Shown here in pieces: positions 9,701-64,000 of a DNA stretch of 64,000 nucleotides (position 1 is the stretch's first letter; each line of letters opens with the position of its first letter). Made by a program: the position numbers and the translations under genes. The notes beneath the pieces are model-generated. The model had not been told where the DNA came from, did no database searches, and was given only the letters and a program-made list of their open reading frames with translations. This stretch comes from Lotus japonicus. Taxonomy: Eukaryota > Streptophyta > Magnoliopsida > Fabales > Fabaceae. The stretch is taken from assembly GCF_012489685.1 (NCBI RefSeq), contig NC_080041.1:107167760-107231759 (forward strand), in the 5' to 3' direction.

Positions 9701-12400
9701 AAGATCAATAATGTTTTATGAGTTTTAATTTTAATATTTAATTTTTAATTCTTTTTTGGTTTAATTACATTTTTAACCTCAAAACCGTTAGGTTTGGATG
9801 GAAAAGAGGGGAGGGACTAAAATTGTTAACGGAGGTTAACGTTGGGGAGACAAAGTAGGATTTTTGAAGTTTAGGGACCTCAATGACACATATCGCTTTC
9901 GTGGGGGACCAAAAGTGCGATTAAGCCTAAAAAAAACTATTTCAAAACATGTTTAATTTAGTATTCGTGTATGTAAGATCATCTACTAAATATTTAGTAA
10001 TATTTATTTTCCGTGTAAACCTCTCGTATTTATTGAATTTTCATAATTAATTCTAAGATGTTAATTACCACTAATTAACAAAGATATGTTATCTGTAGGA
10101 TTTGAACTCTGGACTTGAGAAATTTTGTTCCATCAAGTTTCATTTAGGTCATTCTACCAGTTTTACCACTAACAATAATTCTTTTCAAAGCTACACAATA
10201 GTACAAATTAAGGCTAACTAGGGAAGAAAATATAAATATTTCTAAGCCCAATACATTAACTAACATCATTAATTTTTTTAATAAAGGTTATTATTTTAAG
10301 AGTGTCTTATAATTACAAATCTATCTATCTATATATATATGTAAAGGTTTTGTTGCACTCCTTTACATTAAATGCATTAAATACATTAGCATAAATTATT
10401 TTTTGAATGTAATTAACATAAAAACTTAAATACCTTGATATTAAAATATATTAAGTAATAACAAATTATCTTTGTAATCAATATATTAAATAAAAAAACT
10501 GAAAAAAAATTCTATTGTCAAAACTCAAAAGTTATTCAACTACTTACATTAATATTCACAAAATTATCTATATTAAATAATAATATTTATAATTTTAAAA
10601 TATTAACTTGAGTTGAGAAATATTGACAAGTAAAATTAATTAATTATAAATAATATTTACTAATGAATAACTTAGGTAAATTAGATATAAAATTAATCAA
10701 TATTTGTTATTAAATAATTATTGACAGTTAAAATTATCATAGAATATTTTTTCTATTTAAATACATATATGATGATAAATAAATTAAATAGATTAAAAAC
10801 TAAGTCAATTAAATTAAGTGATATCTATAAAATATGTTATTTATCTCATGTTAATGATAAAAAATTAATAGAATAATATAATTAAATTTATTTGTCAAAA
10901 TATCTTAATTTTAAAAATTTTGGCTGATAATAGTTATAGTTTTGATTTAAAATATGGTTTTTAATAATATTTAATATGAGTTTATAACCTCCGATGAGCT
11001 TTATCATTGTTCCACTCACCTACAATAGATTAAAAATGCAGTATACAATAAAGTATTTAATAAACTTCCTAAATGCAATTATATTTATGTAGCTACAATA
11101 TTTCTTCATTGATAAAAAATAACAATCATTCTTAGCCAATTTGCACATTATTATCATTATAATCAGATGCACGAATTTAACAATTTTTTTTTCACTAAGC
11201 CCTTATGATTTATTTGTGTTAACCATATGTATCCTCTACTGAGTGAACCATGTTCTACTCGAGTGTAGTGAAAGTTAAAGGTCTATCATAAAGTACAGTC
11301 CTTAAAAACCGAATCTCAGTACTCATTATGCAATAAATAATATAATTTTTATATGTGTCACTAAGAAAATGTTTCGACATTACTTTCACTAGCACACTTC
11401 CCATAAAATTTCAACTGAAAACACTACTTTGATGGCCAAAACATGAAAGCAAGAGATAAATACCACTTTATAAAAGTCTTTTTACTTTTATAGAAGATTT
11501 TACACAAACACATACTAAATTATTCATCTCTAATGATATATTTTCATTATTTTATTTAATATTGAGAGTGCATTACTATTAAAACATATGGTCACCAAAT
11601 GAATTGAAAATAATTTTTACTATTAAAGAAACATAAAATATGTGCTTTAATATACTGAAAAAAAATAGTGTACAGTAGATTTTTTGTTGAACTTCATTAA
11701 TGTAATTACACTATATATGTTTATCATATTCTTAGTTATCTACTGTTTAATTTATTAACTTTTCACATGACATATATTATTTCTACAAATAATAGACACA
11801 TAATAACTTAAAAACAAACCCGTGCCCCGTGCAACGCACGGTTTCTACGTACATTATACAATTACCTAGAGTATTCAATTCTATCTTTCGATTTTTGAAA
11901 AATGCATTGAATCAAGTAAATCCTTTTAACTTGCTCAAAAAAAAGTAAATCTTTTTTTTTACATCGAAAAGATAAATTGCACCCGTCAAGAATCAATCCC
12001 TGGACCTCCCCCTACCCAACTCATATGTCCCCAGCTCCTATCACTTGAGCTATCATACGGAGACAAAAAGTAAATCCTTTTAACAAATACATTATTGCCA
12101 TATCAAATATTTTAATTAATGCAGATTAGTGTTCTGTGTGACCATATATTTTTTTGAAGAATTTTAAATCAAGCTTAACTTTTATAACTGTTAAGAAATA
12201 AATTGGTAGTGTTTTTTTTTTGGGTGCATCGAAAAGAAAAATTGGTAGTAATAGATGAAAATCAAATTGGTGCATAATGAATTGAAAAGTTTTATTTACT
12301 TTTAATTTGCAGGACCAGAGATCAATTCATAGGGAAGATCGTCAATTTTGCTTGTGAGCACAAACATCGCTTGCATATACAAAGCAAGTATATGAATTAG
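6749..12400 (+). CDS. NB-ARC/NB-ARC/TIR protein (domain order reversed), 2 exons
   Basis: Exons 6749-8358 and 12313-12400 join (donor GTACGT, acceptor TTTGCAG, phase 2) to give 565 aa. Two P-loop modules come first: GERGSGKT at about residues 31-38 and GKKGSGKT at about 194-202. Their kinase-2 motifs are VIFDDV and VILDDF (about 268), followed by a CKVLLTTRDE motif (about 295) and a GLP motif (about 352). They resemble the NB-ARC of RPS2/At4g27220-like CNL proteins. A complete TIR domain follows from about residue 387 (ISFRGMDTR, SKNYAESEWCLKEL) and retains the Glu used by NAD-cleaving TIRs. Canonical TIR-NLRs have TIR first. No LRRs are seen. The start follows an AG acceptor, so upstream coding exons cannot be excluded. 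The intron (3,954 bp) carries several transposons. Probable role: immune signalling or NADase activity, inferred from the family. Confidence 0.8.
8493..8590 (+). mobile_element. Decayed tRNA-derived SINE
   Basis: It shares GAGCTTGGGGACATATTAG...GATCAATTCCT...GATGTAAAAAAAA with the better copies at 11952-12063 and 51519-51630. It lies in the intron of the NB-TIR gene. The A and B box regions are degraded and I found no clear target duplication. Confidence 0.5.
8841..9927. mobile_element. Non-autonomous Mutator-type foldback element (family M1)
   Basis: Terminal inverted repeats of roughly 110 bp begin GGCTTAATCGCACTTTTGGTC and are flanked by a perfect 9-bp duplication, TAAAAAAAA (8832-8840 and 9928-9936). 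The 9-bp duplication and long TIRs place it in the Mutator superfamily. The interior codes for nothing evident. It sits in the NB-TIR intron. Relatives lie at 18587-20104 and 30129-31270, with a divergent one at 16931-17835. Confidence 0.85.
10324..11852 (+). mobile_element. Possible non-autonomous Helitron
   Basis: A very AT-rich block begins TCTATATATATATG after an A and ends near a perfect stem CCGTGC-AAC-GCACGG (11827-11841), followed by TTTCTACGT where CTAG/CTRR would be expected. The start and the hairpin fit a plant Helitron; the mutated terminus leaves the call uncertain. It lies in the NB-TIR intron and has no coding potential. Confidence 0.4.
11952..12063 (-). mobile_element. tRNA-derived SINE
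   Basis: On the minus strand it carries an A-box-like segment (TAGCTCAAGTGATAGGAGC) and a B-box-like segment (GGTCCAGGGATTGATTC), ending in a T/A-rich tail. It is flanked by a 12-bp duplication, AAAAAGTAAATC (11940-11951 and 12065-12076). It is inserted in the intron of the NB-TIR gene about 250 bp before the last exon. Confidence 0.8.
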
Positions 12401-30128: not shown

Positions 30129-31270
30129 GGCTTAATTGCACTTTTGGTCCCCCAACTATGGCCTTCCTGCGAAAATCGTCCCTAAACTTCAAAATTAGCA
30201 AAACTCGTCCCTCAACTATACACACAGTTGCACTTTTGGTCTTCCGTTAGCATTCCGTCAGAAATCTAACAGATTGGGACTAGTGACGGAGATAATCCGT
30301 CACAATTCACAATCCAGTCACCAAATTTCTTCATCTTCCTCATTATAACCACCACTCATCCTCCCCCTCCTCATTCTTCACTTTCTCCATCTTCATCAAC
30401 CTCAATCCCTCATCCTCCCCTCCCTTCTCCTTTCATTCCTCTTCACCACTACCTCCCTCAACCATCAACACAAACTCTCCATATTGAAATTGAATTGGAG
30501 CGGATTGCTGGAGAGAAAGGGGTTTTGGGTTTTTCTTCAACACTCTTTGCAGATCCCATTTTCTCATCTCCTCATGAAATTAGAAATCCATTTCACAACC
30601 CAAAAGAAGGAGTTGCAGACCTCTCCCTCCATATCTTCATCTCATCTTTCTCACTCGCACCTCTCCCTCCACCGAACCCACACCAGCAAACCACAACCCA
30701 GAACCACCTCTCCCTCCACCAACCCCACCCCTCCCCAGAAACCCAACCGGAACCCACCCCAAACCCCACCCAGAAACTGAGCCCACAAACCCCTTCTTCC
30801 CTCTCACAATAGATCTACCATAACTGAGAAAGGAAAACCAGAGAAGAAAATCCAAGACTTTTTTTTTTCAGATCTCAAACCATTGTTACAGATACAACTT
30901 CAACCTATCATATGGTGTCTGGAGAGGGGGAGCTCGAAGCTTGTAACCCAGAAACCCGACCAAAAACCCAGAAACTTTGAAGCTTTGAACGAGAACCATG
31001 ATCTACAGAAGAGGAGGAGGAAGAGGAAACGGATTTAAGTGAGCTTCTTTATTTTTTCAATTAAAATACTATTTTTTCTCAATTTTATTTTTTCTTTATT
31101 TTTTAATTCATTTTTAACGGAATATTCTGTTAGTTTTCTGACGGAATGCTAACGGAAGACCAAAAGTGCAACTGTGTGTATAGTTGAGGAACGAGTTTTG
31201 CTAATTTTGAAGTTTAGGGATGATTTTCGCAGGAAGGCCATAGTTGGGGGACCAAAAGTGCAATTAAGCC
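30129..31270. mobile_element. Non-autonomous Mutator-type foldback element (M1)
   Basis: Inverted ends of about 150 bp (GGCTTAATTGCACTTTTGG) are flanked by a perfect 9-bp duplication, AAATATGAA (30120-30128 and 31271-31279). The interior at 30340-30800 is C-rich with short Pro-rich ORFs and leader-like sequence, which suggests captured host sequence, but I recognise no gene. Confidence 0.9.
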
Positions 31271-32240: not shown

Positions 32241-33890
32241 ATGTCACACTTCGAGGATATTCAATCTGTTATTATTGACAATGGAACGGCCATGATTAAG
32301 GTACATAATGGATAAATGTTTATTAATTAGTTGTTTGTGTTAAACTTTTAAACGTATCTATTTTTATTTTTATCAGCAGCAATGTATCTATTTTTCAGGC
32401 TGGTTTTGCAAGATATAGTGAGCCACATGCTGTGTTTCCCAGCATTGTTGCTGATGTTGAAAAGGATGCATATGTTGGCGATGAGGCGTTGTTTAAGTAT
32501 GGTACTTCGCCTCTCAAGTACCCCATCAAGAATGGAGTTATAAACAATTGGGATGATATGGAAAAGATTTGGAGGCATACATTCGATAATGAGCTCCGTG
32601 TTGACCCAGAAGACCATCCGGTTCTGCTAACCGAGACTCCTTTTAACCTCAAGGCTAACCGTGAGAAGATGGCCCAAATCATGTTTGAGACTTTTAAGAC
32701 CCCTTTTATGTATATACAAAATTGTGCCACTCTTTCACTGTATGCATATGGTCGCACTACTGGTAAGTAATTTTTGAGTTGTTTGATGCATTTGGAAAGT
32801 GGAATTTGTGTCAATAGGAACCCAATCCTCTTATGATAAAAGCTTCACATGATATCGTTGTTAATCAATTGTGGAGATTTTCATAAGTTTTAGACATTCG
32901 TTGGCCCAACTATGATATTAGAGCCGATTCATGAATTAACAATACATTATAAGCTTATTTCCCTGTCTTTGGTGCTTCTTTATTTTAAAGCACCTTCCTG
33001 TACAAGTCCCCTTTCAGTTTGTACTTACCTCTTTTTTCATATATATATATATATATATACATATAATAGCTTATCTAAAAAAAAAAACATTATAAGCTTA
33101 TTTATTTGTTGCAGGCCTTGTGTTCGATTCTGGTGATGGGGTTAGCCACATTTTCCCTGTGTTTGAGGGTTGTCCCCTTAAAGAGGGCATTAATAGTATT
33201 GATTTGGCTGGTTGTGACCTCACAAATTTCATGAAGAAAATTTTGACTGATCGTAAGTACTCTTTTAGCAGCTCAGCAGAGCGTGAAATTGTGAGGGACA
33301 TGAAAGAAAAACTAGCTTACATTGCCCTTGACTATAACCAAGAGCTGAAAGCAAGTAAGGCAAGTTCTTTTGTGGAGAAGCGATATGAGTTGCCTGATGG
33401 AAAGGTGATCACCATTGGTGATGAGTGTTTCAGATGTCCAGAGTTGTTGTTCAAACCATCATTGATAAGAAGGGAAGAACCTGGCATTCATAAGGCAATA
33501 TACAATTCCATAATGAAATGCGACGTTTATTTCAGGAAACACTTGTACAATAACATTCTCCTTTCAGGAGGAACAACCATGTTCCCAGGAATTGCTAATA
33601 GACTGAGCAAGGAAATTTCTTTAATAGCCCCCAAAAGTATGAAGATCAATGTTGAAGTGTTACCTGAAAGAATATACAGTGCCTGGATTGGTGGTTCTAT
33701 CATGGCATCCTTGAAGGACTTCGATCAGGTTTTGTGTGTTCCTCCCTTCTTTTCAACTTGAAATTTTTTCATTATATGATTGCTATTATGACATTATTTC
33801 TCCTTTTGAGTGCAGATGTGGATTTCAAAGTTCGAATATGATGAATGTGGGGAATCAATTGTCAACAAAAGGTGCATATCAGCTGTTTGA
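32241..33890 (+). CDS. Divergent actin (gene 1), D-loop deleted, 4 exons
   Basis: Exons 32241-32300, 32399-32762, 33115-33728 and 33816-33890 give 370 aa. The three introns fall at the standard plant-actin positions (after codon 20, in the codon for Gly about 150, before the terminal MWI). Exon 2 is 364 nt instead of 394: ten codons are missing between VFPSIV and KDAYVGDEA, which removes the DNase-I-binding loop of subdomain 2. Other changes from conventional actin are DNGTAM in phosphate loop 1, YPIKNG (His73 lost), Cys in place of catalytic Gln137 (MYIQNCATL) and a three-residue C-terminal extension. The DSGDGV loop with His161 is kept. All splice sites and the frame are intact, so it is a gene or a very recent pseudogene. 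Normal filament contacts are unlikely (inference). Confidence 0.85.
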
Positions 33891-43073: not shown

Positions 43074-45707
43074 ATGGCATACTACGATGATATTCAACCT
43101 ATTGTTTTTGACAATGGATCAGGAGTGTTTAAGGTACGTACATATATAATGAAACTGATCTTTTATGTTTTAGAGATGGCAATTTATCTTTAAGTGCCGC
43201 TATTTGGCACGATTAATATAGCTAGGCACGATGAAGCTCGACATGAATTTCAATACACAACACTTGTGGTCGATCTGTTATCATCCCTCTCCTCTCCCTA
43301 ATTTTATCACCCTTCGCTACCTCCAGAGAGCCCCAAGGCCAAACCAAATAACCAAACAAGAAGAAGATTAAGACCCCAGACCCTGTAAGGGTGACTCTCC
43401 TAAGAACCATTAAAAAATCAATTTTTTTGTACAGTCCAATCAAATTGAAATATACGAGTTCAGATTGCAAGCTTCAATTGTATTGAACACGAATAAATTA
43501 CAAAAATGAAAAATTGAGAGAAAAGGAGGAAGGGGTAATTGAGAAAAAAGGAGGATGAAGATGAGCCATGGCTCACTGCGTCGACGAGAGCGGAGGAGGT
43601 GAGGTGTGAAACTTATGGTGGTTGTGGATATTAAGGCTTGTCTGGGTACTTGCACTGGCCAGAAAAGTGAAAGTTAAAAAGAGAGAGGGGAGCCCGGTGG
43701 AGTCTGGATCGTGACGGTGGCCGCCTCACAGTGGTGCGGCCGCCAGAGCTTTGGGTGGTAGAGTTGCAAAGGATGATTCAGCTTTTATTTTTGTAATTTA
43801 AAAATATTATTTTTTAGACATCATGCGTATCATCGTGCATAAAGCTTTAGCATTTCCTTTATCTTTTTGTATCCATCGTTTATGATTATATTTTAATATG
43901 AGAATATTTTTTCACTTTTTAGGGTGGACTTGTCAGATATGACGCTCCGCATGCTGTGTTTCCCAGCATCGTGGGGCGCTCTCAACATGCGGGTATGATG
44001 GTGGGCATAACCCGAAAAGATGCATATGTTGGCGATGAGGCAGACTCTAGAAGTGGCCTTCTAACTCTGAAATACCCAATTGAACACGGAGTTGTGAGCA
44101 ATTGGGATGACATGGAAAAGATTTGGCACCATGCCTTTTATAATGAACTTCGTGTTTCCCCAGAAGAGCATCCTCTTCTTCTAACCGAGGTTCCCTTAAA
44201 CACTAAGAATAACCGTGAGAAGATGACTCAAATCATGTTTGAGACTTTTAGTACCCCTGCTATGTATATATCCAACGGTGCTGTTCTCTCAATGTATGCA
44301 AGTGGACGTATAAATGGTAAGCTAGCGTGCAATTCGTGATTTACTTATTTAATTTCACTCGTTCGAAAAATTGTAACTGCTAATCAAGTAGGTTGGTGTA
44401 GTGGTTCAGCACTTCATCCTTCAAGCAAGTAGTTGGGGGTTCGAATCCCAACTCTTGCGAATAGAGAAAAGTCCTTGGTCAATCCCCTACCGCTTAGTGC
44501 GCTGACCGTGGGGCGAGAGATTAGTCTCACGGCTGTCGGGTGTGGGGATACGTTGATCAAGACCAAAAAAAAAAAATTGTAATTGCTTATCCTTCAAGCT
44601 CAACATTTATCCTCACCCTTCCAATACTAGGAGAGAGTCATGAGTAATTAATAGGGGTAGTTTTGAAATTGAACATGAGTAATTTATATATTATGAAAAA
44701 TATTTATAAAAAGGCTTAATGAAAGGATTATTTTTCACACTTCAGAAAATTTTAGGAGTTAAATACATTTTTTTAAACGTGAAGAATTAAGTCGCACGTA
44801 AAGCAAACAGGTTAATCCACAAGTCAAAATTAAGGGACTAAATTTATTTCATTTTCAAGTTTGTTAATTTATTTGCCTTCTCTTTGTAGGTATTGTATTG
44901 GAGTGTGGTGATGGTGTGACCAGCACTGCTCCTGTTTACGAGGGTTATGTCCTCCCACATGCCATCCAAAGTCTTAATTTTGGTGGTAGCGATATCACTA
45001 AATACTTGATAGATATTTTGGGTGAACGTGGCTATTCATTCACCAACTCCTCAGAGTGTAAAATTGTGAGGGACATGAAAGAAAAATTAGCTTACCTTGC
45101 CCTTAACTATGAGCATGAGCTAGCAACAGCCAAAACTAGTTCTTGTGTTGATTATGAGTTGCCAGATGGGCATGTAATCACTATTGGTGATGAGAGGTTC
45201 AAATGTCCAGAGGTTTTATTCCAACCATCCTTGATTGGTATGAAAGTACCTCACACTAATGATCCAGCACATGGTATTCATGAGATAATAAATGAATCCA
45301 TAATGAAATGTGATTCTGAAATTAGGAAAGACTTCTACGGAAACATTGTCCTCTCCGGGGGATCAACCATGTTCCCAGGCATTGCTGATCGATTAACCAA
45401 GGAAATTACTAGTATAGCCCCTTCAAGCATTCGCATCAAAGTGGTTGCACCACCTGAGAGGAAGTACTCTGTTTGGATTGGTGGTTCTATCTTGGCATCA
45501 CTTAGCACCTTCCAACAGGTTTCTTCTGTTCCTTCTTTCTAATTTACTTCAATCTTGACAATTGACATGCTAGCTATTGAGAGTTTTTTTTAATATATAA
45601 GACACATATACTAATAAAACAAATTGTCCTTGTGAGTGTAGATGTGGGTTACAAAGGCAGAATATGACGAGTCTGGTCCATCAATCGTGCATCAAAAGTG
45701 CTTCTAA
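43074..45707 (+). CDS. Divergent actin (gene 2), 4 exons
   Basis: Exons 43074-43133, 43923-44316, 44890-45518 and 45642-45707 give 382 aa, with introns at the standard plant-actin positions. The D-loop is present ([16 protein letters not shown]). Conventional catalytic features are altered: Gln137 is Gly (MYISNGAVL), the second phosphate loop reads ECGDGVTS (Asp154 to Glu, His161 to Ser), and exon 3 is 15 nt longer because VPHTNDPA is inserted before GIHE while two residues are lost near [11 protein letters not shown]. The frame and splice sites are intact. Intron 1 (789 nt) contains a repeat that recurs at 51.6-52.26 kb, and intron 2 carries a SINE. It likely binds nucleotide but hydrolyses it poorly (inference). 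It is the parent of the partial copy at 51.5-61.4 kb. Confidence 0.85.
44386..44571 (+). mobile_element. tRNA-derived SINE in intron 2 of actin gene 2
   Basis: It contains GGTTGGTGTAGTGGTTCAGC (A-box side) and GGTTCGAATCCC (B box), a roughly 100-bp body and an A-rich tail. Near-identical copies of AAATTGTAACTGCTAATC flank it (about 44367 and 44573), differing at two positions, as expected of a SINE target duplication. It is a different SINE family from the 11952 and 51519 copies. Confidence 0.85.
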
Positions 45708-51499: not shown

Positions 51500-52263
51500 T
51501 GGCAATTTATCTTTCAGTGTAATCGTAGGATAGCTCAAGAAGTAGGAGCTGGGGACATATGAATTGGGTATGGGGATCCAAGAATCAATTCCTGTTGAGT
51601 GCAATTTATCTTTCTGATATATCAAACAAAAATTTATCTTTCAGTCCCGCTATTTGGCACGATTAATATAGGCACGATGAGACACGACATGAATTTCAAT
51701 AGACAACACTTGTGGTCTGTTATCATCCCTCTCCTCTCCCTAATTTTTATCGCTCATTTTCTAACTTTCCTTTTCCACTTTCTTTTCCATTGTATTGTCC
51801 CTAAACCCACTCTGGTCACCGTGAGAAGCCTTTGGATATACCCATCGGCCATCACCCTTCGCCACCTCCAGAGAGCCCCAAGGCCAAACCAAATAACCAA
51901 ACAAGAAGAAGATTAAAACTCCTAGACCCTGTAAGGGTGACTCTCCTAAGAACCATTAAGAAATCAAATTTTTTTTTTACAGTCCAATCAAATTGAAACA
52001 TAAGAGTTCAGATTGCAAGCTTCAATTCTATTGAACAGGAATAAATTATAAAAATGAAAAATGAGAGAAAAGGAGGAGGGGGAATTGAGAGAAAAGAAGG
52101 AAGAGGAAGATGAGCCCTGGCTCACGACGTCGACGAGAGCGGAGGAGGTAAGGTGTGCAACCGAAAAGTGAAAGTTGAAAAGGGAGAGGGGAGCCCGGTG
52201 GAGTCTGGGTCGTGTTGGTGGCCGCCTCGCAATGGTGCGGTCGTCAGGGCTTTGGGTGGAAGA
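51500..52263 (+). pseudogene. Left half of a partial actin gene copy (intron 1)
   Basis: From about 51500 this repeats intron 1 of actin gene 2 (about 43165-43762), including GCTATTTGGCACGATTAATA and the AGAGGGGAGCCCGGTGGAG segment. Exon 1 is absent. It stops at 52263, where the MULE begins; the other half resumes at 60775. A SINE is inserted within it. Confidence 0.85.
51519..51630 (+). mobile_element. tRNA-derived SINE with 15-bp target duplication
   Basis: It contains TAGCTCAAGAAGTAGGAGC and GGGGATCCAAGAATCAATTC, matching the SINE at 11952-12063, and ends ATATATCAAACAAA. It is bounded by perfect AATTTATCTTTCAGT copies at 51504-51518 and 51631-51645. The parent actin intron (about 43165) has the uninterrupted site, so this insertion happened after the duplication. 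Confidence 0.9.
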
Positions 52264-52305
52264 GGGATTTGGGTTTGGCACCCCACCCTTTAGGCTACGC
52301 GCCCC
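52264..52305 (+). repeat. Left terminal inverted repeat of the MULE
   Basis: About 42 bp pair with the right end, with roughly six mismatches over about 44 positions. The shared core is GGGATTTGGGTTT, then CACCCCACCC and TTAGGC. Confidence 0.9.
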
Positions 52306-52333
52306 AGCATTTTTTTTTATTCCAAAACTACCC

Positions 52334-52942
52334 ATCGGTAAATGATTTGCCGATGTCAAAATAACAATCGGTAAATGATTTACCGTTATTGTTCCTCAGT
52401 ATGAACACCTTTATCCCATTACCCAGAACACGAAGAACAATATCGGTTAATCATTAACCGATTCTTATATTGATATCGGTATATCATTTACCGATTGGTA
52501 ATCTGGCAGTTTGATCACCTTTTCACCATTACTCCTCCCTCCACCAACCCCTCCACCATTACTCCTCCCTCCAACAACCCCCCACCAGCCCCCCATAACT
52601 CGCCCAAACTACCTTATTCTACCATTACTCCACTCCTCCCTCACATTTCACCTTCCCACCACCACCACCATCTCCACATTTCCACCACCACCACCACCAC
52701 CACCAAGGGAAAGCTTTTAACTTCTGGTAAGTGGTGTTAGCTTTGGTACTTTATTTATAGTTAGTTTAAGTAGTTAGTTGTTAGTTTAAGTAGTTAGTTT
52801 AGTTAGTTAAGTTGGTAATTTAGGCTGCTGAATCGTGAATCGAATCGGTAAATGAATTGCCGTTAATGTATCGGATTATGATTTACCGTTATTATACCGG
52901 AATTTGATTTACCGTTATAGGGTCGGTTATTGATTTACCGTT
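52334..52942 (+). promoter_or_regulatory. Left subterminal palindrome array of the MULE
   Basis: Eight copies of a 21-bp imperfect palindrome (consensus near ATCGGTAAATGATTTACCG) begin at 52334, 52367, 52442, 52475, 52844, 52870, 52896 and 52922. The last four are spaced exactly 26 bp apart and end 12 bp before the transposase ATG; the first four form two pairs spaced 33 bp apart. Such subterminal arrays are where MULE transposases or their partner proteins bind. Binding is inferred, not shown. The cluster adjoining the ATG may also regulate the gene. Confidence 0.8.
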
Positions 52943-52954
52943 TTTGTTCCAGGG

Positions 52955-55900
52955 ATGACAGAGTCCTTTTTCTTTGGTGAATCACAATTGATACATGCTG
53001 CTGGATTGGAAAATGATAATCCAGAGGAGCAACCATCACTAGCTGAACCTCCGATTATATCTATAGATGTCTCTCATTTGTATCATACTGATCAGGTACT
53101 CATTGCACAAATTTTTGCATGCTTTGTTTGCTTTGTTTATGCCTTGTTTTATGCCTTATGCCTTATGCCTTGTTTATCCTGAAACAGCGTTTCCCTTTGA
53201 AAGATGATCTTATGAAATGGGTTCGCGACATTTCTATGGCAAATAATTTTGTTTTGGTGACAACAAAGTCTGATAGTGGTGCGAAGGGAAGAAAAGAATA
53301 TGTCATTCTGGGGTGTGAGAAGCATGGTGCGTATATTCCCTACAGAGAACCGGATCTTGTTGAAGGAACGTCAACACAAAAGACAGGTTGTCCTTTTAGG
53401 CTAAAAGGACGACGTACGAAAGATGATAAAGGTTGGTGGTTGAAGGTGATGGACGGTAGACACATCCATCTCGCAGCTGAGTCACTAATTGGCCACAATT
53501 ACGCTGGTAGACTGAATAGTGAGGCGAAGGAGGACGTGATAAATCAGGCTAAGACTTGGGTTCCACCTAGAAAGATGTTGGCGTCCTTGAAGGAAAAAGA
53601 TCCTTCAAACTTGACTACCATCCAACAAATTTATGGTGTTTGCAAGCGGTTCAGACAATCCGTTCGTGGGTCACTGACAGAGATACAATACTTGCTGAAG
53701 AAGTTGGACGGTGAGAAGTATGTTCACTTCGAACGAAATGAACCCGGATCGGAAGTGATTAGAGATATATTTTGGGCTCATCCGAATGCCGTCAAACTTT
53801 TCAACACATTCCCATATGTAGTGATCATGGATTGCACATACAAGACCAGCAAATACAAACTACCCTTGCTCGAGATTGTTGGCCTGACCTCCACGGATAA
53901 AACATACTCAATAGCATTCTGTTACATTGGCAGTGAGACCACAGAGGACTACATTTGGGCATTGGAGTGTATGAAGTCTCTGATTTCCGACCAATCCAGG
54001 TTGCCTAGAGTGATTGTGACGGATAGAGATCTTGCTTTATTGAGTGCTGCTTCACAAAGCCTTCCCACCACCACCCATTTAATATGCTTGTGGCACATCA
54101 ACAAGTGTGTTTTGGCAAAGTGCAAAGAGTATGTTGGCACGGATGATTTTGCTCAAGAGGTTATGGACAAGTGGGCCGAATTGGTAGATGCTCCAACAGT
54201 TCCAGAATTTGAAGCTCATTGGATTGAATTGTTTAACATGTGCAAGCATAAACACAAGTTGAAATTTGCCACTTATTGTTCTACTACATGGTTGGTCCAC
54301 AAGCAGAAATTTGCCAAGGCATGGACAAATCATGTGATGCATTTTGGAACAACAACAAGTAACAGGTACAAAAATTATGTTATGACTTGTTATATGTATT
54401 TCATTTCATAGATTATTACAGTATTAATTCTTACATGTGCGTTGTTGGTTTGCAGGGCTGAAGGTGCACATGCCAGCTTGAAGTTGATGTTGCGGAACAG
54501 TAAGGGTGACCTGGCCACATCATGGGATGCGTCGCATAGTTTGACCACCAATCGCCACACTGAGATAGTAGCATCGTTTGAGCGCAGTATGAATAAAATT
54601 GATCACCTTTTCAAGACCCCTTTCTACACAAATATTAGGGGATTTGTGTCAATCAAATGCCTGAAACTCATTGATGCTGAACTGACAAGAATGCGAGCCT
54701 GCGGCGGCAGATGCGATTGCTTATTGAGAGAGACTCATGGACTACCTTGCGGTTGTCAACTTGCAGGTTACCGGTCAACCACTCTCCTCTCAACTACTTC
54801 CAATTATTTATATTTGTGATTCAATGTAACATGTCTGTGAACTTGCAGATTATGAGAGGATTCCGTACGAGGCCATTCATCCATTCTGGAAGAGCCTAAG
54901 TTGGGAGCATGTACCTGTTGCAGATACTGGCAGCTCAGATATTTGCGGACTAAACCATGGAGAGATGCACCCAGAAGTTGAGGCACTGACACGTTATTTC
55001 CATTCTTTGGATACTGGAGGGCAGAGTATGGTAAGGAGGAAGCTTCAAGCGATATATTGTCCTGAAAGGAGTACACTATGTACTCCTGAGCTTCGGATAA
55101 AGTCCAACCGCACTCCTAAGTTGAAAGAGAGCAAACAACCCAAGGGTCGAGCAATAGGATCCTTGACTCGTGATCCTTCAGCGTTTGAACTTACAGACAA
55201 GAAGATTAAAGAGGAAAAGAAGTCTTCACAACCAGCAAAGAGGAAGAAGCGTGTGAAGAAGTCTGATACAAGCCATTTCATGTGTAACTTTCCAGCCTTT
55301 CTCCATCCATATATTGGCACAATTACAGATGTTGAGGATGATGGTAACTGTGGCTATAGATCCATTGCTGCATTAATGGGGCATTCCGCCGGTCAGGACG
55401 GTTGGCCTTGGGTTAGGGCTACATTGATACAAGAACTTGAGACCAATGTGGTAATGTATAATAGGATGTGGGGCACAGATGTTGTTTATGGCTTACATAA
55501 TCGTCTCACTCTTCCTATTGGTGACCCGGCCACCCCTGACAAATGGTTTCAACTGCCAGAGATGGGATACCTTGTTGCCACAAAGTACCAATTGGTTCTC
55601 GTATCATTATCCTCTATGGGTTGTAACACATACTTTCCACTGATAGGAGCCGGCCCACGAGATGAGCATTCTGTTATAGCTATTGGACATGTGATAAATC
55701 ACTGGGTACAGGTATATTTTGACCAAATACACTAATATTTTAGTTGCCTACTAGCTTGTCGATTAATTTTTGTATGTGGAAGTTATCTAATTTTATGGTT
55801 ATTCTCTAAAATGCAGCTCCAATTAACTCCTGGACATCCTATGCCGACTATTGCTCCCCAGTGGGAATGGCACAGTGATCTTGCCTCCAAATACTGGCGC

Positions 55901-56002
55901 AACCTATATGGTCCACGTTTAGGCATGTATGATGCACAATTCCAAGCTTGGCTTGGTGCTTTTAGTGGTCATGCGGACTATGTGGACATCACCACAGATT
56001 GA
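52955..56002 (+). CDS. MULE transposase with FAR1-type N-terminus and OTU protease domain, 5 exons
   Basis: Exons 52955-53095, 53188-54365, 54456-54766, 54849-55711 and 55817-56002 (all GT-AG) give 892 aa. A FAR1/WRKY-GCM1-like zinc-finger DNA-binding region occupies about residues 65-155. The MULE DDE domain has Asp262 (VIMDCTYKT) and Asp326 (VTDRDLAL), then CLWHINKC. A SWIM-like zinc motif, CDC...LPCGC, lies at 526-540. From about 690 an OTU cysteine-protease domain follows: DDGNC at 707-711 with Cys711 as nucleophile, and His828 in NHWVQ. Start: first ATG in the exon, preceded by the palindrome array. The DDE domain should cut and join element ends in the nucleus. The OTU domain is predicted to remove ubiquitin or a related tag, perhaps stabilising transposase or altering chromatin (inference). 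All catalytic residues are present. Confidence 0.9.
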
Positions 56003-56129
56003 ATGTTCTTGTATTGTGTAATATTAATTTGTAAACTCTCTGTAATTTGGTAGAATGTGGCCCTTATCACAGGTTGTTGTTAATGATGAAAATCTAGACA
56101 TCATCGTAGATTGGCAGGTTCATGCGTGT

Positions 56130-56229
56130 ACTTTTGGTAATGTTAATTTGATGCACTTTTGGTAATGTTAATTTGATGCACTTTTGGTAATGTTAATTTG
56201 ATGTACTTTTGGTAATGTTAATTTGATGT
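56130..56229 (+). repeat. 25-bp tandem repeat, four copies
   Basis: Four uninterrupted units of ACTTTTGGTAATGTTAATTT plus GATGC or GATGT start at 56130, 56155, 56180 and 56205, with a partial fifth. They lie between the transposase stop and the promoter of the HROB-like gene. The function is unknown; they may be a 3'-end or spacer element. Confidence 0.95.
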
Positions 56230-56354
56230 ACTCTTGTCATTTTCATTTTCATTACCCTCCACCACCAACCCTGACATTACTCTCAACCACCAGCCCCAAC
56301 CACTCTTCTACCATCCACCAGTACACCTTAAATGTTTTGACCGCACGCCTGAGC

Positions 56355-56454
56355 TATAAATATCTGTTGTGTCTTGCCTCTTCTTCTTACTCTTCATTCC
56401 TCATCTTCCTGTCTATTGTGTCTTGCCTCTTCTTATTACTCCTCTTTCTACACG
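56355..56454 (+). promoter_or_regulatory. TATA box and duplicated leader of the HROB-like gene
   Basis: TATAAATA at 56355-56362 lies about 100 bp upstream of the ATG at 56455, so the gene has its own promoter. The leader contains a duplicated pyrimidine-rich segment (TTGTGTCTTGCCTCTTCTT twice, about 47 bp apart). Confidence 0.65.
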
Positions 56455-57212
56455 ATGGAACAAGACCCAAATCCATTCCTCCGCCATTGCAAAGGTCAAA
56501 GCAACAACTCTGGCAGCTCTCGTCCTCTCATTCCTGGCCCGGCTGGCGCCATCCAGGCTGCCATGTATGCCCGTAGATCCACCCCTAACACACCACTCAT
56601 TCCGACCCAGGAAATCGTGAGGCGTGTGCTAGATCATGGATCAACCGAAACCGATCCTGATTTCAACTCACATGCTTGGCTATCAGCCCTGCAAGAGTGG
56701 GGAATAGCCACTCCGCTGGGCTCTCTGACAGCGAACGTTGAGAGGGTGGAGAATGTTGTTGCTGTTATCAAATCTTGCACTCCCAATGGGTTTGGAGATG
56801 CGAAAGTTACCCTCAAGGTATGTCTTGTCCTTGCTTTTGTAAGGCCTTGCTTTTGGTCCCCCTTGACTAACCGTTCTAATTTACTTCTCAAACGATTTCA
56901 AAAATTTAGGACCCCACGGGTGCTGTTGATGCTAGCATCCACCGCAAGGCATTTACTCACAGTGAATTTGCGAATGACATAACTGTTGGATCTGTTCTCG
57001 TTCTCCAAAAGGTCTGAAACCTAAACATGAAACTTGCTTCATTTTTTGGACAGTTAAGCATGGTTTAATTAAAGTATACATTTCACATGCAGGTTGCTGT
57101 GTTTGCACCTAGAGGAACTGTTTGTTATCTTAATATAACATTGCCCAACCTAGTGAAGGTATTCCCAAAAGATTGCGGACCCCATGACTTCATCGATATC
57201 ACAGAGGAATAA
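56455..57212 (+). CDS. HROB-like OB-fold protein carried by the MULE, 3 exons
   Basis: Exons 56455-56817, 56910-57011 and 57093-57212 (GT-AG) give 194 aa. The protein has a short N-terminal part with the PGPAGAIQAAM motif, then an OB-fold-like domain: VAVIKSCTPN, VTLKDPTGAVDASIHRK, ITVGSVLVLQKVAVFAP and CYLNITLPNLVKVF. This resembles the central and C-terminal region of the homologous recombination OB-fold protein, which in animals recruits the MCM8-9 helicase to DNA repair. Plant members I know of are longer. Introns are kept, so it was taken as genomic DNA rather than through RNA (inference). It lies 452 bp after the transposase gene on the same strand and has its own TATA box. Whether it is host cargo or a standing part of this MULE family needs a family search. 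Confidence 0.7.
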
Positions 57213-57456
57213 TTTTGTTTTCGGTGTTGCTTATGTTTAATTTGGTTGTGTAACCGTTTAACTTATTGTCATGGATTACTACATGCTTTGAATTATTTAT
57301 ATGTTGTCGTTGTTTCTGTTTTTTTCATTATAAGAGTCATAATATTAAGACTAAAAATATAACACATGTAAATAAAACGAGGCAAGAGTCATAACATAAC
57401 ATAAAAAGTCCTAACATATACATAATAATGGATCCCACATAACAAGTGTAATAAAA
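57213..57456. other. Convergent 3' ends of two MULE genes
   Basis: About 240 bp separate the stop codons of the HROB-like and mobile-domain genes. AT-rich with no ORF; it should hold both polyadenylation regions. Confidence 0.6.
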
Positions 57457-59739
57457 TCACTCTCCCCGACCCCGCCCCCTGCGACCTCTGGGTCCACGAG
57501 CTCGACCTCCACGAACACCCTCTCCAGGATCACCCTCTCCACGAGCTCTGCCTCCACGAGCTCCGCCTCCACGGGGTCTGCCTCCACGAGCTCTGCCTCC
57601 ACGAGCTCTGCCTCCCGCAGCTGCGGCTCCTCGAATAGCAGAAAAGGCAACTCCCTGGGTACCAACGAAGGAACTCCGTCGAAAGAGATCGAGCGCCCTC
57701 TCCGTGAGGATTCGGGGCTGTGTCCCTGGAGCAAGAGCACCTGGCACCTCCAGGGACTGCTCCAACAACTCCACACCCCTACGTATGGCAGACTGCATAA
57801 AAATAATATACAAAAATAATTTCATTAACAAAAATCACAATTGAATGAATAAAAATAATATACAAGTTTAGAATCCAAACTTACCACGGCACTAAGCTCC
57901 TCCCTCCTATCCTCAGGGATGATGAACACATGTGACACTCTGCTATACCACCTCATGTAACCCTCCACCGCCTCTCCCGGATATGTAGCAGGTATCCCCT
58001 GAGGGCAGAGGTGCGGCTCAAACTCAGCATAGGCAGCATCTGTGGTCTCAGCAAGGGACCCCGTCGTCTGGATCTCAGAGGGGTGTCGAGGGATGTCCTG
58101 TATGAAGCCAAACTGGCGCATAACCCGCTCTGGTAGATGTCGGCTCACAGACCGGCCGTAAGGTGTCCGGATGTAGCCGGAATAGAGGGCCCTGGGATCC
58201 CGCGGTCGAACATCTCGATGGTCCTCAAAAGGGGTCCATGTGATATCATCCACTGTAAGCTCATCGAGCATGACTCGTCTCTCATCGAGTCCGGAATGCG
58301 CGATCCGAGACGTGGACCACCGCTGCGCCCTAGGCTGGTCCTGTGTGTAGCCGGGGACCTCCGTCCTGATAATGACGCTGCTGGATATGTACTCATACGC
58401 CCATGACAGCACGAGGGAGGTGAACCCACCGATCTGCGCTGTCTTCCTGCGGGATGCACGACTCAGCTGTTCGTACAACGAAGCCAGCGCAATCGCACCC
58501 CACGCGTACTCCGACACGCGACCGAGGTCCTCAAGCATCCCGATCCAGTAGACAGTAGTGTGGTAACCACCACTCTTGCTGGCAAAGAGGGTGGCACCAA
58601 GCTGATTCACCAGCCAGATCCTAGCAGCATCCTCATAGCGTCCCCCTACAATGAAATGAATTAAGTTAACAGTTATTAATAATACTCTAAAAATAAAGTA
58701 ATTATTAAGACATACCATCCATAGCAGACGTGTACATGGTCTTCAGAGTAATGAACCGAATGTTCTGGCCACCCGCCGCCTCAAACTCAGCCAGATAAGC
58801 AGCAACAGATCCTCCCAGGAGCTGGGCGCAGAGCGCTGCAACCTCGTCTCGCTCCCCTCTGCCCGGAGTGTAGAACCTCGACCCTGTGGGAAGATGGAGA
58901 AGAGTAGACACATCGTCCAGGGTGATAGTCATCTCCCCGAACGGCATGTGGAAGCTACTCGTCTCCTCATGCCATCTCTCAACAAGGGCCAGTACGACAG
59001 CTGGGTCTGTCTCCGGTAACCCGCACCAAGGCAGGTGATACAAACCCGTCTGCTGCAGCAGCTGTCGCACATGTGTGTGGGCCTCTGAATCGCCATCACA
59101 GGGGAGGTTCCATACCTTTCCCCCAACAGTGGCCACCCTCAATGTCCGACGGTCCACGTACCGCGGGTCTGTGCGAAGAAGTGCCTGCCACGTCCAAGGA
59201 GCCTTGTGGTCAGGATAATGCGCAAGAAGCGACAGATCCTCAGGCCCCCCGGGAAACGGTGCCACCCTCTGGATGAGGTCGTCATCCGCACCGCCCTCTG
59301 CACCGCCCTCTGGCACCACATCTGGCATAACATCAGCAGCATCAATCTCCTCCTGCAGAATAAGAGGCTCCTCCTCCTCACCACTAAGCTCAGAAGAAGA
59401 AGAAGACTCCTCGCCACTAGGCTCAGAAGAAGATGTCTCCTGACGAGGTAACTCAGCCATCGGAGACAACGGAGCAGGGTCCAGCTCAGCCGGAGCCCTA
59501 GTAGCAGACGGAGCGGGGGTAGCTGACGGAGCCCCGACCGGAGTAGCAGATGGAGCCGGGGTAGCTAACGGAGCCTCGACCGGAGTAGCAGATGGGGATG
59601 GAGACGGAGCTGAAGCCTCTACCGCCTGAGTGGCTGCAATATGGTCGCCGCGCCTGGTAGAAGCATGCAAGCGCTCGTGTCGATCCGCTGGATCCTCACT
59701 AGTAGAAGCATGTCGTGACCTCTTCCTCCCGCCCTTCAT
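57457..59739 (-). CDS. Plant mobile domain (PMD) protein with RGG-rich tail, 3 exons
   Basis: Exons 59739-58716, 58645-57885 and 57792-57457 (GT-AG) give 706 aa. The start (MKGGRKRSRHAS) follows an AG acceptor, so a 5'-UTR intron is likely. Residues about 1-150 are disordered: a basic patch, ATPVEAP/ATPAPS repeats and a Ser/Glu run. The plant mobile domain runs from about 150 (DDLIQRVAPF, LVERWHEETSSFHMPFGE, ITLDDVSTLLHLPTGSRF) to about 480. The last exon encodes GGRARGGRARGGRPRGG repeats, typical of RNA/DNA-binding RGG boxes. PMD proteins occur both as host genes (MAIN/MAIL, linked to silencing) and inside transposons. Within this MULE it may help escape silencing or assist binding (inference). 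It is convergent with the HROB-like gene. Confidence 0.85.
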
Positions 59740-59745
59740 TCTCGC

Positions 59746-60200
59746 TATCTGTGCAAAACAAACAAATTTAACAATACTTGTCATAATAAGTAAAGCATTT
59801 TCACATATGAGCATATCATTTGAGTCATTTTTTAACTTAATCAGGAAATTTCCAATCAATCGTTTAGCAACTAACCATAGGAAAAGGAAAATATAGAGAA
59901 TTAGTTGTTAGTTTGCATGTGAATGTGATTAAATTAAATTTCTAGCTGTGTTAAGGTCCGCAACCATCATCACAAGCAAACAAAAACAATAAACAACTTT
60001 CCTAATTACAACACATGAAGCATATGATTTGAGCGCTTAATCTTTTCCAATAAACAATAAACAATAAACAACTTTCCTAATCACAACACATCAAATCTAT
60101 CTTGATCTTTTCCAATTCTCAACAAATCAGCAAAGTAATCCTGGAAGCTAAATACATGCCATGGTTAAATATTGGAAATAAATTTTGGAAGTCTGCACTG
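59746..60200 (-). other. 5' region of the PMD gene
   Basis: An AG acceptor just above the ATG implies a leader intron. The promoter or first exon would be in this AT-rich stretch. No other gene is seen. Confidence 0.45.
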
Positions 60201-60212
60201 TCATACTGTCAT

Positions 60213-60692
60213 ATCGGAAAATCATTTTCCATTACCATATCGGAAAATCATTTTCCATTATCATATCGGAAATTGATTTTCCGATATTACAGTAAACCCA
60301 GAAACAGACCCAAATGCACCCCACTCGTGCTCGTACTCGTTTCATGGAATTTCAGGCAACAAAACACAACAAAACCTACCTCTAATCATCAATCAACTAC
60401 CCTAGTGTTCAACCATTGACCTAATTCAAACTTCAAATGTGAAAATCATTGAAATCAAAACTTACCTTTTGAATGTAATGGAATGGGTCTTTGTGGGAGC
60501 TTTGATGATGATTAGAACCGACCTTGAGATGATTTAAGTGGTGGAACCGAGCTTTGAGAGAGGATGCGATTGAGGGAGGGAAATTTGGGTTTTGAAATAA
60601 TGGGTTTCAAAACCCAAACTGTCGTGTTTATATGTTTTAAACACGATCGGTAAATGATTACCCGTTATAGAGTCGGGTAATCATTTACCGTT
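60213..60692 (+). promoter_or_regulatory. Right subterminal palindrome arrays of the MULE
   Basis: Three copies of an ATCGGAAAATCATTTTCC-type palindrome begin at 60213, 60239 and 60265, exactly 26 bp apart. Two copies of the ATCGGTAAATGATTACCCG-type begin at 60646 and 60672, again 26 bp apart. The same motif and period at the left end make a transposase or partner binding site the simplest reading. The first cluster also sits upstream of the PMD gene, so it could regulate it. Confidence 0.8.
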
Positions 60693-60732
60693 TTTAATCA
60701 ACTGGTTTTCTGGTAATTTCGCCCCCCAAGGT

Positions 60733-60774
60733 GGGGCGGGGGGCCTAATGGGTGGGGTGTTAAACCCAAATCCC
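60733..60774 (-). repeat. Right terminal inverted repeat of the MULE
   Basis: The complement reads GGGATTTGGGTTTAACACCC, matching the left terminus. Confidence 0.9.
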
Positions 60775-61410
60775 GGTGGAAGAAGGTTGTGGGGGGTGGA
60801 GTTGCAAAGGATGATCCAACTTTTATTTTTTTAATTTAAAAATATTTTTTTTAGACATCGTGCTTGTCATCGTGCATAAAGCTTTAGCATTTCCTTAATC
60901 TTTTTGTATCCATCGTTTATGATTATTTTTTAATATGAGAATTTTTTTTCACTTTTTAGGGTGGATTTTCCGGAGATGATGCCCCGCGTGCTGTGTTTCC
61001 CAGCATCGTGGGGCGCTCTCAACATGCGGGTATGATGGTTGGCATGACTCGAAAAGATACATATGTTGGTGATGAGGCAGACTCTAGAAGTGGCATTCTG
61101 ACTCTGAATTACCCAATTGAACATGGAGTTGTGAGCAATTGGGATGACATGGAAAAGATTTGGCACCATGCCTTTTATAATGAACTTCGTGTTTCCCCGG
61201 AAGATCATCCTCTTCTTCTAACCAAGGTTCCTTTAAACACTAAGGATAACCGTGAGAAGATGACTAAAATCATGTTTGAGACTTTTAGTACCCCTGCTAT
61301 GTATATATCCAACGGTGCTGTTCTCTCATTGTATGCAAGTGGACGTATAACTGGTAAGCTAGCGCGCAATTCGTGATTTACTTATTTAATTTCACTCGTT
61401 CCAAAAATTT
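60775..61410 (+). pseudogene. Right half of the partial actin copy (end of intron 1, exon 2)
   Basis: Exon 2 (60960-61353, 394 nt) is open with intact splice sites and is very similar to exon 2 of actin gene 2, including MYISNGAVL where Gln137 is missing. It keeps [14 protein letters not shown], closer to ordinary actin than gene 2 at that spot. Exon 1 is absent and the intron upstream is split by the 8.5-kb MULE. Intron 2 breaks off at about 61410, where Stowaway elements begin; exons 3-4 may lie beyond the window. Confidence 0.85.
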
Positions 61411-61412
61411 TA

Positions 61413-61850: not shown

Positions 61851-64000
61851 CACTACTAGAAAATATAGATTTAACATCAGAGTTTTTACATCGGGGGATC
61901 AAACACCTGATGTGAAAGATAAAGCGGTGGCAAAATTGAAATTACAGGGAACTTTAGTGAGAGATTTCACATCGGTTGATGCTATGGCCGATGTGGAAAG
62001 TAATTAGTAAACATTTTTTACAACGGTTGATATAACAACCGATGTGAAATATAATGCGGTGGCATTTTTGAAATTTTAATAAAGTACTTTTCACATCGGG
62101 TATAATACAACCGTTGTGAAAAGTCCCTCACACAACACTGAAAATCCAACACGCACAAACTCAACCAATCACGGAAAAAACCTAAGTTTGCAAACACTTG
62201 GAGGAAGAAGATGGAAGTCGCTTAACTTGGAGCTTCCTGCACCAACGACGCCGTCGCGAAGACCCTTCCTGTTGTTCGTGCCAAACGACGCCGTCTCGAA
62301 GGTACGCATCTTCTGAGGTCCTCTCTTTTCTCTTCTCACATCCTATCTCACCATAAATTTCATGCGTTCTTCTGCATAACTCTCCATTCATGATGCTTGC
62401 TTCGTTTTCTAGGGCTTTCCTCGTTCCGGTATCGACATTCCAGCTGTTTGTGCCGAACGACACCGTCTTGAAGGTACGCATCTTCAATTACCCTAAGTTT
62501 GCGCTGAAAATTTTGATGCTACTAGCTATGAATACTGGGTAAAAATAGCACTGATGGTCTATGTGTAAAAATAATGATTCAGTGTTTCTTTTGGTTAAAT
62601 ACTATCCAAGATTGCTAGGTTAGAATTATCCCTAGTTAAATTCACAAGAGTATATACCCCTCAGAAATACTTATTTCGCCAACTACCAAGTTAATTCAAC
62701 TGTCAAACTACTTAAACACTCATTTAGGTATGATGTTGATATTGCAGAGAAAGAAGGGCAATGGAAAACAGATGGTTCATAGCCCAATGACATGAATGAT
62801 AGAAGTTCATGTGAGGGAAAATTGTTACAGTATCAACTAGTTCAATTTGAAACCAAATTGTCATAACTGTATTTTGGAAGCCAAGAGTTAACAAAAATTG
62901 CAAATTCTGTGATCTGTCTAAGGGCTATAATCTCTCATGGTTTTGATGTTCTGTGCAGAGTTGCGTAATGACCACAAGGAGGTAACTGAGAAAATCAATC
63001 AAAACATACAAATTTTGCATTCTGCAAGACTTGGAAAATCACCCTTCAAGAATTCAGGTATTCAGTACTGGAGAATTTATTGTTTCTCATTGTTAACTTT
63101 GCCTTCTTGTTGATGTTACATTACATTGTTTGCTTTTGAAGACAATAAATACTTCATCATATATGTACGAGTGAGAGCCGGAGCGACATTCGTTAGAGAA
63201 ATTAAGTGGAAGGAATATGTTAGGAAGTGACTATATAGAAATGATATTTTCTTGAACTCTGTATAGAAGGTTTATTGGTTGAGATAAATGTTCAGATTAT
63301 GCTCATAGAATTTGTTTCTAGGCTTTCATACTCTCTTGTAGACTTATTAGCATGTTAGTCCACGGGCATTCAACGGTAAAAATAGTATAGACCAGAGTCC
63401 TATGATCCTTGTTCTGAATTGCAGCTACTTCAATGAAACCAGTTTTCTTTCTTCTTCAATTGTTATTTGTATTAAGTTGGTATGTACTTATCCAGATTCC
63501 TAAGAGGCTAGGATCCTTGATCTGGATTTCAGCTACTTCAATGAAATCAGTTTTCTTTCTTATTCAATGGTTGTTTGTATCAATTTGGTATGTACTTATC
63601 AGATTCACATGTAAAGTTCATTTCAAGGGACAGTGTTACTGCAAGGGTTGAAGTATATAAAGATCATGCGAGGAATAGACATAGGTTATATTAAATGTTT
63701 TGATTGTAAATCTGGTTCCATTGCTTTAAACAGAGTTGTGCTAACACTTAAAAATCATGTTTGAAACTTCTATACAGCTGGAAACTAGCCCATGGGTTTA
63801 CTTATTTAATTTTTCCATTACTGCACTTTTGAAGTCTTGATATGCTTTGATGGTCTAATTTTCTGAATTTGATTTTGATTCTATCATTGTTTGGTTTTTA
63901 CATTGTATATGAATAGTGTGAGTGGTGTCTATATTATCATTTTTTATCCTATATATGTTTGGTTGTCTAGAGTGTGTGAACTATATAGGTTAGAGAATGA
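61851..64000 (+). mobile_element. CACTA element, left part, runs past the window
   Basis: It begins CACTACTAGAAAATATAG and has subterminal repeats of ACATCGG...GATGTGAAA type in both orientations (61880-62120), as CACTA elements do. The broken Stowaway on its left shows the insertion site. No transposase is seen in 2.1 kb. A GC-rich stretch at 62200-62480 holds two copies of a GACGCCGTCTCGAAGGTACG-like segment and may be captured leader or exon sequence. Confidence 0.7.
63423..63611 (+). repeat. Tandem direct duplication, 108-bp unit
   Basis: AGCTACTTCAATGAAA starts at 63423 and again at 63531, with similarity over about 80 bp. A local duplication inside the CACTA element; no gene is implied. 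Confidence 0.85.

Follow-up and report, generated by a model that had tools for sequence, protein, structure and literature searches.

The window analysed here, a 64,000-nucleotide stretch of Lotus japonicus DNA, contains a Mutator-like element (MULE) of 8,511 bp at positions 52264-60774. As an earlier sequence-only reading of this DNA had proposed, the element is bounded exactly by 43-bp terminal inverted repeats (TIRs), identical at 37 of 43 positions, and by a 9-bp target-site duplication (TSD) that matches at 9/9. Between its ends lie three spliced genes, all open and with consensus splice sites, again in agreement with that reading: a five-exon transposase-OTU gene encoding 892 amino acids and a three-exon HROB-like gene encoding 194, both on the + strand, and a three-exon PMD gene encoding 706 on the - strand, antisense to the other two (Table 1). 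Pfam matched the transposase to MULE (PF10551, 8.6e-24), the second protein to the HROB OB fold (PF15072, 1.3e-29, profile positions 1-85 of 85) and the third to PMD (PF10536, 1.1e-48). The label 'PMD-RGG', given earlier to this last protein, holds for PMD by Pfam, and its 'RGG' corresponds to a GGRARGG-type tail. A 9-bp TSD (8-11 bp is expected), a MULE DDE transposase and TIRs place the element in the MULE superfamily, and on this sequence it is apparently intact and apparently autonomous. We rejected the possibility of a Pack-MULE, a non-autonomous gene carrier, as the transposase is open and not lost.

Judging by its anatomy and by shared inheritance, the element almost certainly belongs to a young MULE family in which the three genes are inherited as one set. 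The nearest proteins of the window genes are those of L. japonicus itself, and a search of its genome (553.7 Mb, 65 contigs), in which the window lies at C1:107167760-107231759, with transposase exon 2 returned 456 candidate places. Of these, 40 were scored and all 40 were 99-100% identical in this exon, which led us to reject a unique or captured host gene cluster. We read the best 20 of these 40, the window's own copy included, a sample that leans towards the closest copies. Both ends and a perfect 9-bp TSD were present in 18 of the 20; L023 has both ends and mismatched flanks (2/9), and the right end of L016 was not found. Identical 9-bp flanks thus accompanied 18 of the 19 copies with both ends, compared with 0 of 342 mismatched flank pairs, and the finding of 18 copies with 18 different TSDs eliminated an assembly artefact.

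The expectation that copies with matched TIRs share all three genes was borne out in 12 of the 20, where all three are full-length (11 of them with a perfect TSD, the exception being L023), but not in the other 8, which carry internal deletions and some of which, L010 and L014 among them, lack two genes. Seven of these eight keep both family ends and the TSD (L016 being the exception); they therefore have the appearance of derivatives and leave a three-gene family standing. All three genes are open with splice sites in seven copies (L009, L012, L019, L020, L023, L025 and L027), and the HROB gene is intact in 11.

An unoccupied version of the insertion site lies in a neighbouring actin-like paralogue, as had been noticed before: GGTGGTAGA at 43754-43762 agrees with the TSD at 8 of 9 bases, and the paralogue (43306-44375) is 87% identical to the joined flanks of the element across the junction, with a 17-bp gap beside GGTGGTAGA. 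We take the flanking reading frame, before which the element is inserted, to be actin-like by eye, with no database search behind the label. Related actin-like segments occur at three places in the window (32461-32767, 43306-44375 and 60790-61412), with pairwise identities of 75-94%. The insertion had been described as datable; the empty site shows only that the flanking gene had duplicated before the insertion, and the divergence of copies dates better. One substitution and one indel separate L020 from L025, and the window copy differs from its nearest full-length sibling among the copies read, L022, by 32 substitutions and 4 indels. Under an assumed substitution rate of 0.65-1.3e-8 per site and year, these differences correspond to ~5-9 thousand and ~146-292 thousand years, respectively. 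Copies as alike as these hint that the family may still be moving in this model legume.

The 12 full-length copies form two subfamilies, A (L009, L011 and L022) and B (the nine others), that resemble each other closely in the left 7 kb but differ by 14-40% in 500-bp steps beyond element position ~7000, within the N-terminus of PMD and in the right end. L013 looks like a mosaic in which an A-like left part is joined to a right end of type B, which suggests that right ends have been exchanged between subfamilies.

Table 1. Features of the element and its insertion site in the window.
Feature	Position	Strand	Remark
Left TSD GGTGGAAGA	52255..52263	.	9/9 match to right TSD
Left TIR, 43 bp	52264..52306	+	37/43 identical to right TIR
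Left subterminal array, four near-palindromes ~ATCGGTAAATnATTTACCGAT	52334..52496	.	
Second left array, CGG...CCG repeats	52844..52946	.	26-bp spacing; ends ~10 bp before transposase ATG
Transposase-OTU exon 1	52955..53095	+	ATG start
Transposase-OTU exon 2	53188..54365	+	MULE domain
Transposase-OTU exon 3	54456..54766	+	
Transposase-OTU exon 4	54849..55711	+	OTU-fold part from ~55256
Transposase-OTU exon 5	55817..56002	+	Stop
HROB-like exon 1	56455..56817	+	
HROB-like exon 2	56910..57011	+	
HROB-like exon 3	57093..57212	+	
PMD exon 3	57457..57792	-	GGRARGG-type tail
PMD exon 2	57885..58645	-	
PMD exon 1	58716..59739	-	
Array of three near-palindromes ~ATCGGAAAATnATTTTCCGAT	60213..60289	.	26-bp spacing; ~0.5 kb upstream of PMD start
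Right subterminal inverted pair CGGTAAAT/ATTTACCG	60646..60696	.	
Right TIR, 43 bp	60732..60774	-	37/43 identical to left TIR
Right TSD GGTGGAAGA	60775..60783	.	9/9 match to left TSD
Unoccupied site GGTGGTAGA in actin-like paralogue	43754..43762	+	8/9 positions against TSD

The same overall plan is shared by elements of sister families C, D, E and G (the letters A-G are our own). In L029 of family C (7,133 bp, TSD 9/9), the final HROB exon is largely missing, as is the C-terminal part of PMD. In family D, L030 (7,110 bp, TSD 9/9) has an intact transposase-OTU gene (898 aa), no HROB and a PMD frame without stops, the 3' end of which was not resolved by lift-over. In L031 of family E (8,061 bp, TSD 8/9), none of the three genes is missing, but the transposase is frame-shifted and HROB has one stop. 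L033 of family G (6,363 bp, TSD 9/9) carries the transposase, HROB and part of PMD. L032 of family F combines an internally deleted transposase with HROB; no PMD was found downstream of its HROB, and PMD sequence upstream on the same strand possibly comes from another element.

Scoring co-occurrence at listed loci where HROB follows the transposase on the same strand by no more than 6 kb, we found this arrangement at 23 of 40 A/B loci, 38 of 57 loci of C and others, 28 of 35 F loci and 19 of 20 G loci. In total, 108 of 152 listed transposase loci have HROB downstream, at median distances of ~2.0-2.3 kb, compared with a chance expectation of ~0.0008 per locus from the 150 listed HROB hits. The arrangement recurs down to 49% transposase identity, and the genome holds at least 226 distinct HROB places. 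With PMD as query, 63 loci were obtained; a listed HROB was in place tail-to-tail at 14, a listed transposase at 10 and neither at 44. Co-occurrence of the three genes between matched TIRs is therefore upheld by the 12 full-length copies and by a gene order that recurs in sister families, but the set is not obligatory, as family D does without HROB.

In the transposase, we take the D codons at 53830 and 54022 and the E codon at 54460 to be catalytic, having assigned them by motif. A Cys/His stretch from 54712 in exon 3 looks SWIM-like by eye; Pfam gave no SWIM match. Nor did Pfam report an OTU domain, even with the threshold relaxed to E<=10. When the exon-4 part was modelled with AlphaFold2 (pLDDT 81, pTM 0.79) and the model compared with the PDB, all 14 matches with E<=0.001 were OTU proteases, DUBA being the top one. 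As modelled, the exon-4 tail of the transposase is an OTU fold with Cys and His, and the presumed catalytic residues are encoded at 55349 (Cys) and 55700 (His), both in exon 4. Most of the 14 relatives compared align at both the Asp-Gly-Asn-Cys and the His motif; the exceptions are P0122, without the Cys, P0149, without the middle part, and P0097, in which the His region is absent, perhaps as an effect of its gene model. An OTU-type tail also aligns in MULE-domain proteins of soybean, pistachio and Rosaceae; among open-licence papers, we found no relevant report of OTU in MULEs.

In human HROB, helicase stimulation requires the OB fold, which contacts MCM9; the segment preceding this fold contacts MCM8, and N-terminal acidic motifs bind RPA1 (PMC11055865 and PMC7290032; here and below, published systems are described from parts of the cited papers). 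Like host HROB (MCM8IP, C17orf53), the Lotus transposon HROB has the PF15072 OB fold and an IPGPAG-type segment, the latter being present in the window protein and in 13 of 15 Lotus-named HROB proteins (not P0001 or P0019, a 120-aa fragment). Unlike many host-type HROBs, it lacks the N-terminal acidic and the C-terminal WTDEQL-type motifs (the motif names are our own). By a loose pattern test, the N-terminal acidic (RPA-type) and the C-terminal motif each occurred in 0 of the 15 Lotus-named proteins, and in 29 and 16, respectively, of all 94 HROB hits. A PDB sequence search with the HROB protein gave chance-level matches only.

In a midpoint-rooted tree of 37 HROB proteins, with 'host' labels assigned from names and length and no host HROB recognised for Lotus itself, six Lotus transposon HROBs formed one clade (100/99) nested with legume HROBs in a clade of 13 (100/99). 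Asteraceae HROBs that include Tanacetum 'transposase, MuDR' proteins formed another (100/100, plus one unnamed protein) within an Asteraceae clade (100/99), and five Asteraceae proteins of this group also lack both end motifs. In this tree, amplified short HROBs thus appear to have arisen at least twice. The source name 'transposase, MuDR, MULE transposase domain protein' is given to the Tanacetum HROB-domain proteins P0037-P0039, P0043, P0046 and P0080. Only such names in databases hint at a second HROB-MULE association, in Asteraceae. We found no report of HROB in a transposon in the literature searched, a weak negative given that only open-licence papers were covered.

Pairwise ratios of non-synonymous to synonymous substitution rates (dN/dS) were below 1 for each of the three genes, as estimated by simple Nei-Gojobori counts on few pairs with no significance test. 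Between the window copy and sister families, the transposase-OTU gene gave 0.42-0.44 (0.34 for the transposase part and 0.82 for the OTU part), HROB gave 0.285 against L031 and 0.447 against L029, and PMD gave 0.32 (0.22 for the core and 0.71 for the N-terminus). Between subfamilies A and B, the ratio was 0.5-0.7 for the transposase and 0.42-0.47 for PMD, and four comparisons of HROB gave 3 synonymous changes and 0-1 non-synonymous ones.

Near-palindromes with CGG...CCG half-sites are found beside each TIR, immediately ahead of the start of the transposase gene and ~0.25-0.55 kb upstream of that of PMD. Each of the five elements compared (A-E, of which A and B share a left end) has its first left palindrome starting at position 71-72, and the sequence of this palindrome differs by group: ~ATCGGTAAATnATTTACCGAT in A/B, AATACGGAAAGGTACTTTCCGTATT in C and AATACGGAAnTTAAnTTCCGTATT in D/E. 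Family G has TTCGGAA/TTCCGAA half-sites, which also fill its transposase-HROB spacer. Palindrome counts exceeded those of all 100 shuffles in the left ends of A, B and C and the right ends of D and E. One 22-base form of the A/B motif has 122 exact matches in the genome compared with 0 for the reversed control; of the first 100 listed, 57 are no more than 9 kb away from a transposase, HROB or PMD hit on our lists, regions that together make up at most 1% of the genome.

These features invite comparison with known MULEs. In the MUDR clade of plants (Dupeyron et al. 2019, PMC6446971), elements likewise have a 9-bp TSD, a MULE transposase and, in most cases, an antisense PMD gene, with TIRs within 30-320 bp; PMD genes are listed there for most members of several plant MULE groups, often antisense, and an HROB gene such as the one found here is not named in the parts of that paper covered. 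Like Arabidopsis VANDAL elements, which carry VANA, VANB and VANC (PMC5735166, PMC10398659), the Lotus element has three genes and dense short non-coding motifs that differ between related families. VANC proteins bind such dense family-specific motifs and bring about loss of methylation (PMC5735166, PMC10398659). VANC, however, carries DUF1985/DUF287, neither of which matched in the three window proteins (Pfam, E<=0.001), and VANDAL TIRs are degenerate and their motifs tandem and same-oriented, whereas the Lotus TIRs are 86% identical and its motifs palindromic. The Lotus element thus resembles VANDAL in plan, not in protein family. As in the Ulp1-carrying Kaonashi MULEs (PMC13317346), a host protease domain has been taken up and kept, Ulp1 there and an OTU-fold tail here. 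The gene set had been called unusual, which is true mainly of HROB: antisense PMD genes in MULEs have been published, and the OTU-type tail occurs in proteins of other plants. What is new is the carriage of HROB together with family-specific arrays.

The host PMD proteins MAIN and MAIL1 act in silencing, and the authors of that work speculate that MULE-borne PMDs serve anti-silencing (PMC5418596). Our own PMD structure model was too poor to use (pLDDT 38). The arrays and the gene count resemble the VANDAL plan, and we therefore propose that PMD counters silencing at the arrays. Either the transposase or a different protein of the element would bind arrays and ends, and the element would be cut and pasted. 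The OTU part may strip ubiquitin off the transposase or off chromatin. Related to the silencing factors MAIN/MAIL1, the PMD protein would be a VANC-like anti-silencing factor at the non-coding arrays, a role to which we give an even chance. The HROB core keeps the part that matches the MCM8-9-engaging region of human HROB, lacks an acidic motif like the RPA1 binder, and could tilt excision-gap repair towards the copying of long tracts off the sister chromatid, which would restore the donor copy and raise copy number; this role seems rather unlikely. Our best overall explanation, a very recently mobile and apparently autonomous MULE whose cargo has repair and anti-silencing roles, falls slightly short of an even chance. 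Its boldest form is quite unlikely: that MULEs at least once, and perhaps twice independently (in Lotus and Asteraceae), took a host MCM8-9 activator, in Lotus stripped to its helicase-binding core, to steer their own gap repair, while an element protein reads family-specific arrays against silencing and sister families diverge as separate recognition systems.

Several observations weigh against the explanation by repair and anti-silencing cargo. Only five of ten segments beat all 100 shuffles in palindrome count, and palindromes bearing the motif make up 3 of 8 in the right end of D and 3 of 5 in that of E, the remainder being unlike it. The fast evolution of the OTU part (dN/dS 0.82) may mean relaxed constraint, and the short Tanacetum HROBs P0041, P0045, P0049 and P0051 keep the N-terminal motif by the loose pattern test. 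No listed HROB accompanies 44 of the 152 listed transposase loci, through either unlisted HROBs or true losses. In family D, a listed HROB lies within 6 kb at 0 of 29 listed PMD loci, which were assigned to the family by frame length and score, one of them (L030) having been read. Family D has spread without HROB, so HROB in cis is not needed for spread, and we rejected the view that it is required. This, the truncation of both genes in L029 of the abundant family C and the whole or partial loss of HROB in 8 of the 20 A/B copies would suit an ordinary autonomous MULE that took up host HROB once and retained HROB and PMD as passengers with little or no role in mobility. Points against such a history are the HROB dN/dS values of 0.285 and 0.447 between families, the scarcity of non-synonymous changes between A and B, the intact HROB gene in 11 of 20 copies and the recurrence of HROB ~2 kb downstream in a family at 49% transposase identity, and we judge it fairly improbable.

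Two further alternatives reassign the parts. HROB could be a dominant inhibitor, its MCM8-9-binding core without the RPA motif blocking host recombination and diverting gaps to other repair or reinsertion. The motif loss does remove a region like the RPA1 binder of human HROB, but a dN/dS below 1 fits an active role equally well, and we regard inhibition as very unlikely. A stronger contender, although still a minority prospect, is that the arrays are transposase-binding sites only and that PMD acts elsewhere, for example against MAIN/MAIL1-PP7L, without binding the element. The placement of the first palindrome 71-72 bp from the left end in 5/5 elements is as expected of a transposition site; the arrays that immediately precede the transposase start, those ahead of the PMD gene and, in family G, those in the transposase-HROB spacer weigh against this alternative.

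It is a long-standing question how Mutator-type elements, which move by cut and paste, gain copies. A transposon with a constrained relative of a recombination factor, and sister families with and without HROB in one genome, make the repair step testable, and the arrays may provide a second case, beyond Arabidopsis, in which to test VANC-like sequence-specific anti-silencing. The family thus opens the question of how a plant transposon may influence its own gap repair and silencing.

Elsewhere in the window, a 1,142-bp element at 30129-31270 has 145-bp inverted repeats (98%) and an apparent perfect 9-bp duplication, AAATATGAA; it is probably a short non-autonomous Mutator-type element. At 8840-9928, inverted repeats of ~270 bp (84%) have ends resembling those of this element, and at 63400-63606, two copies of ~100 bp lie head-to-tail and are 89% alike.

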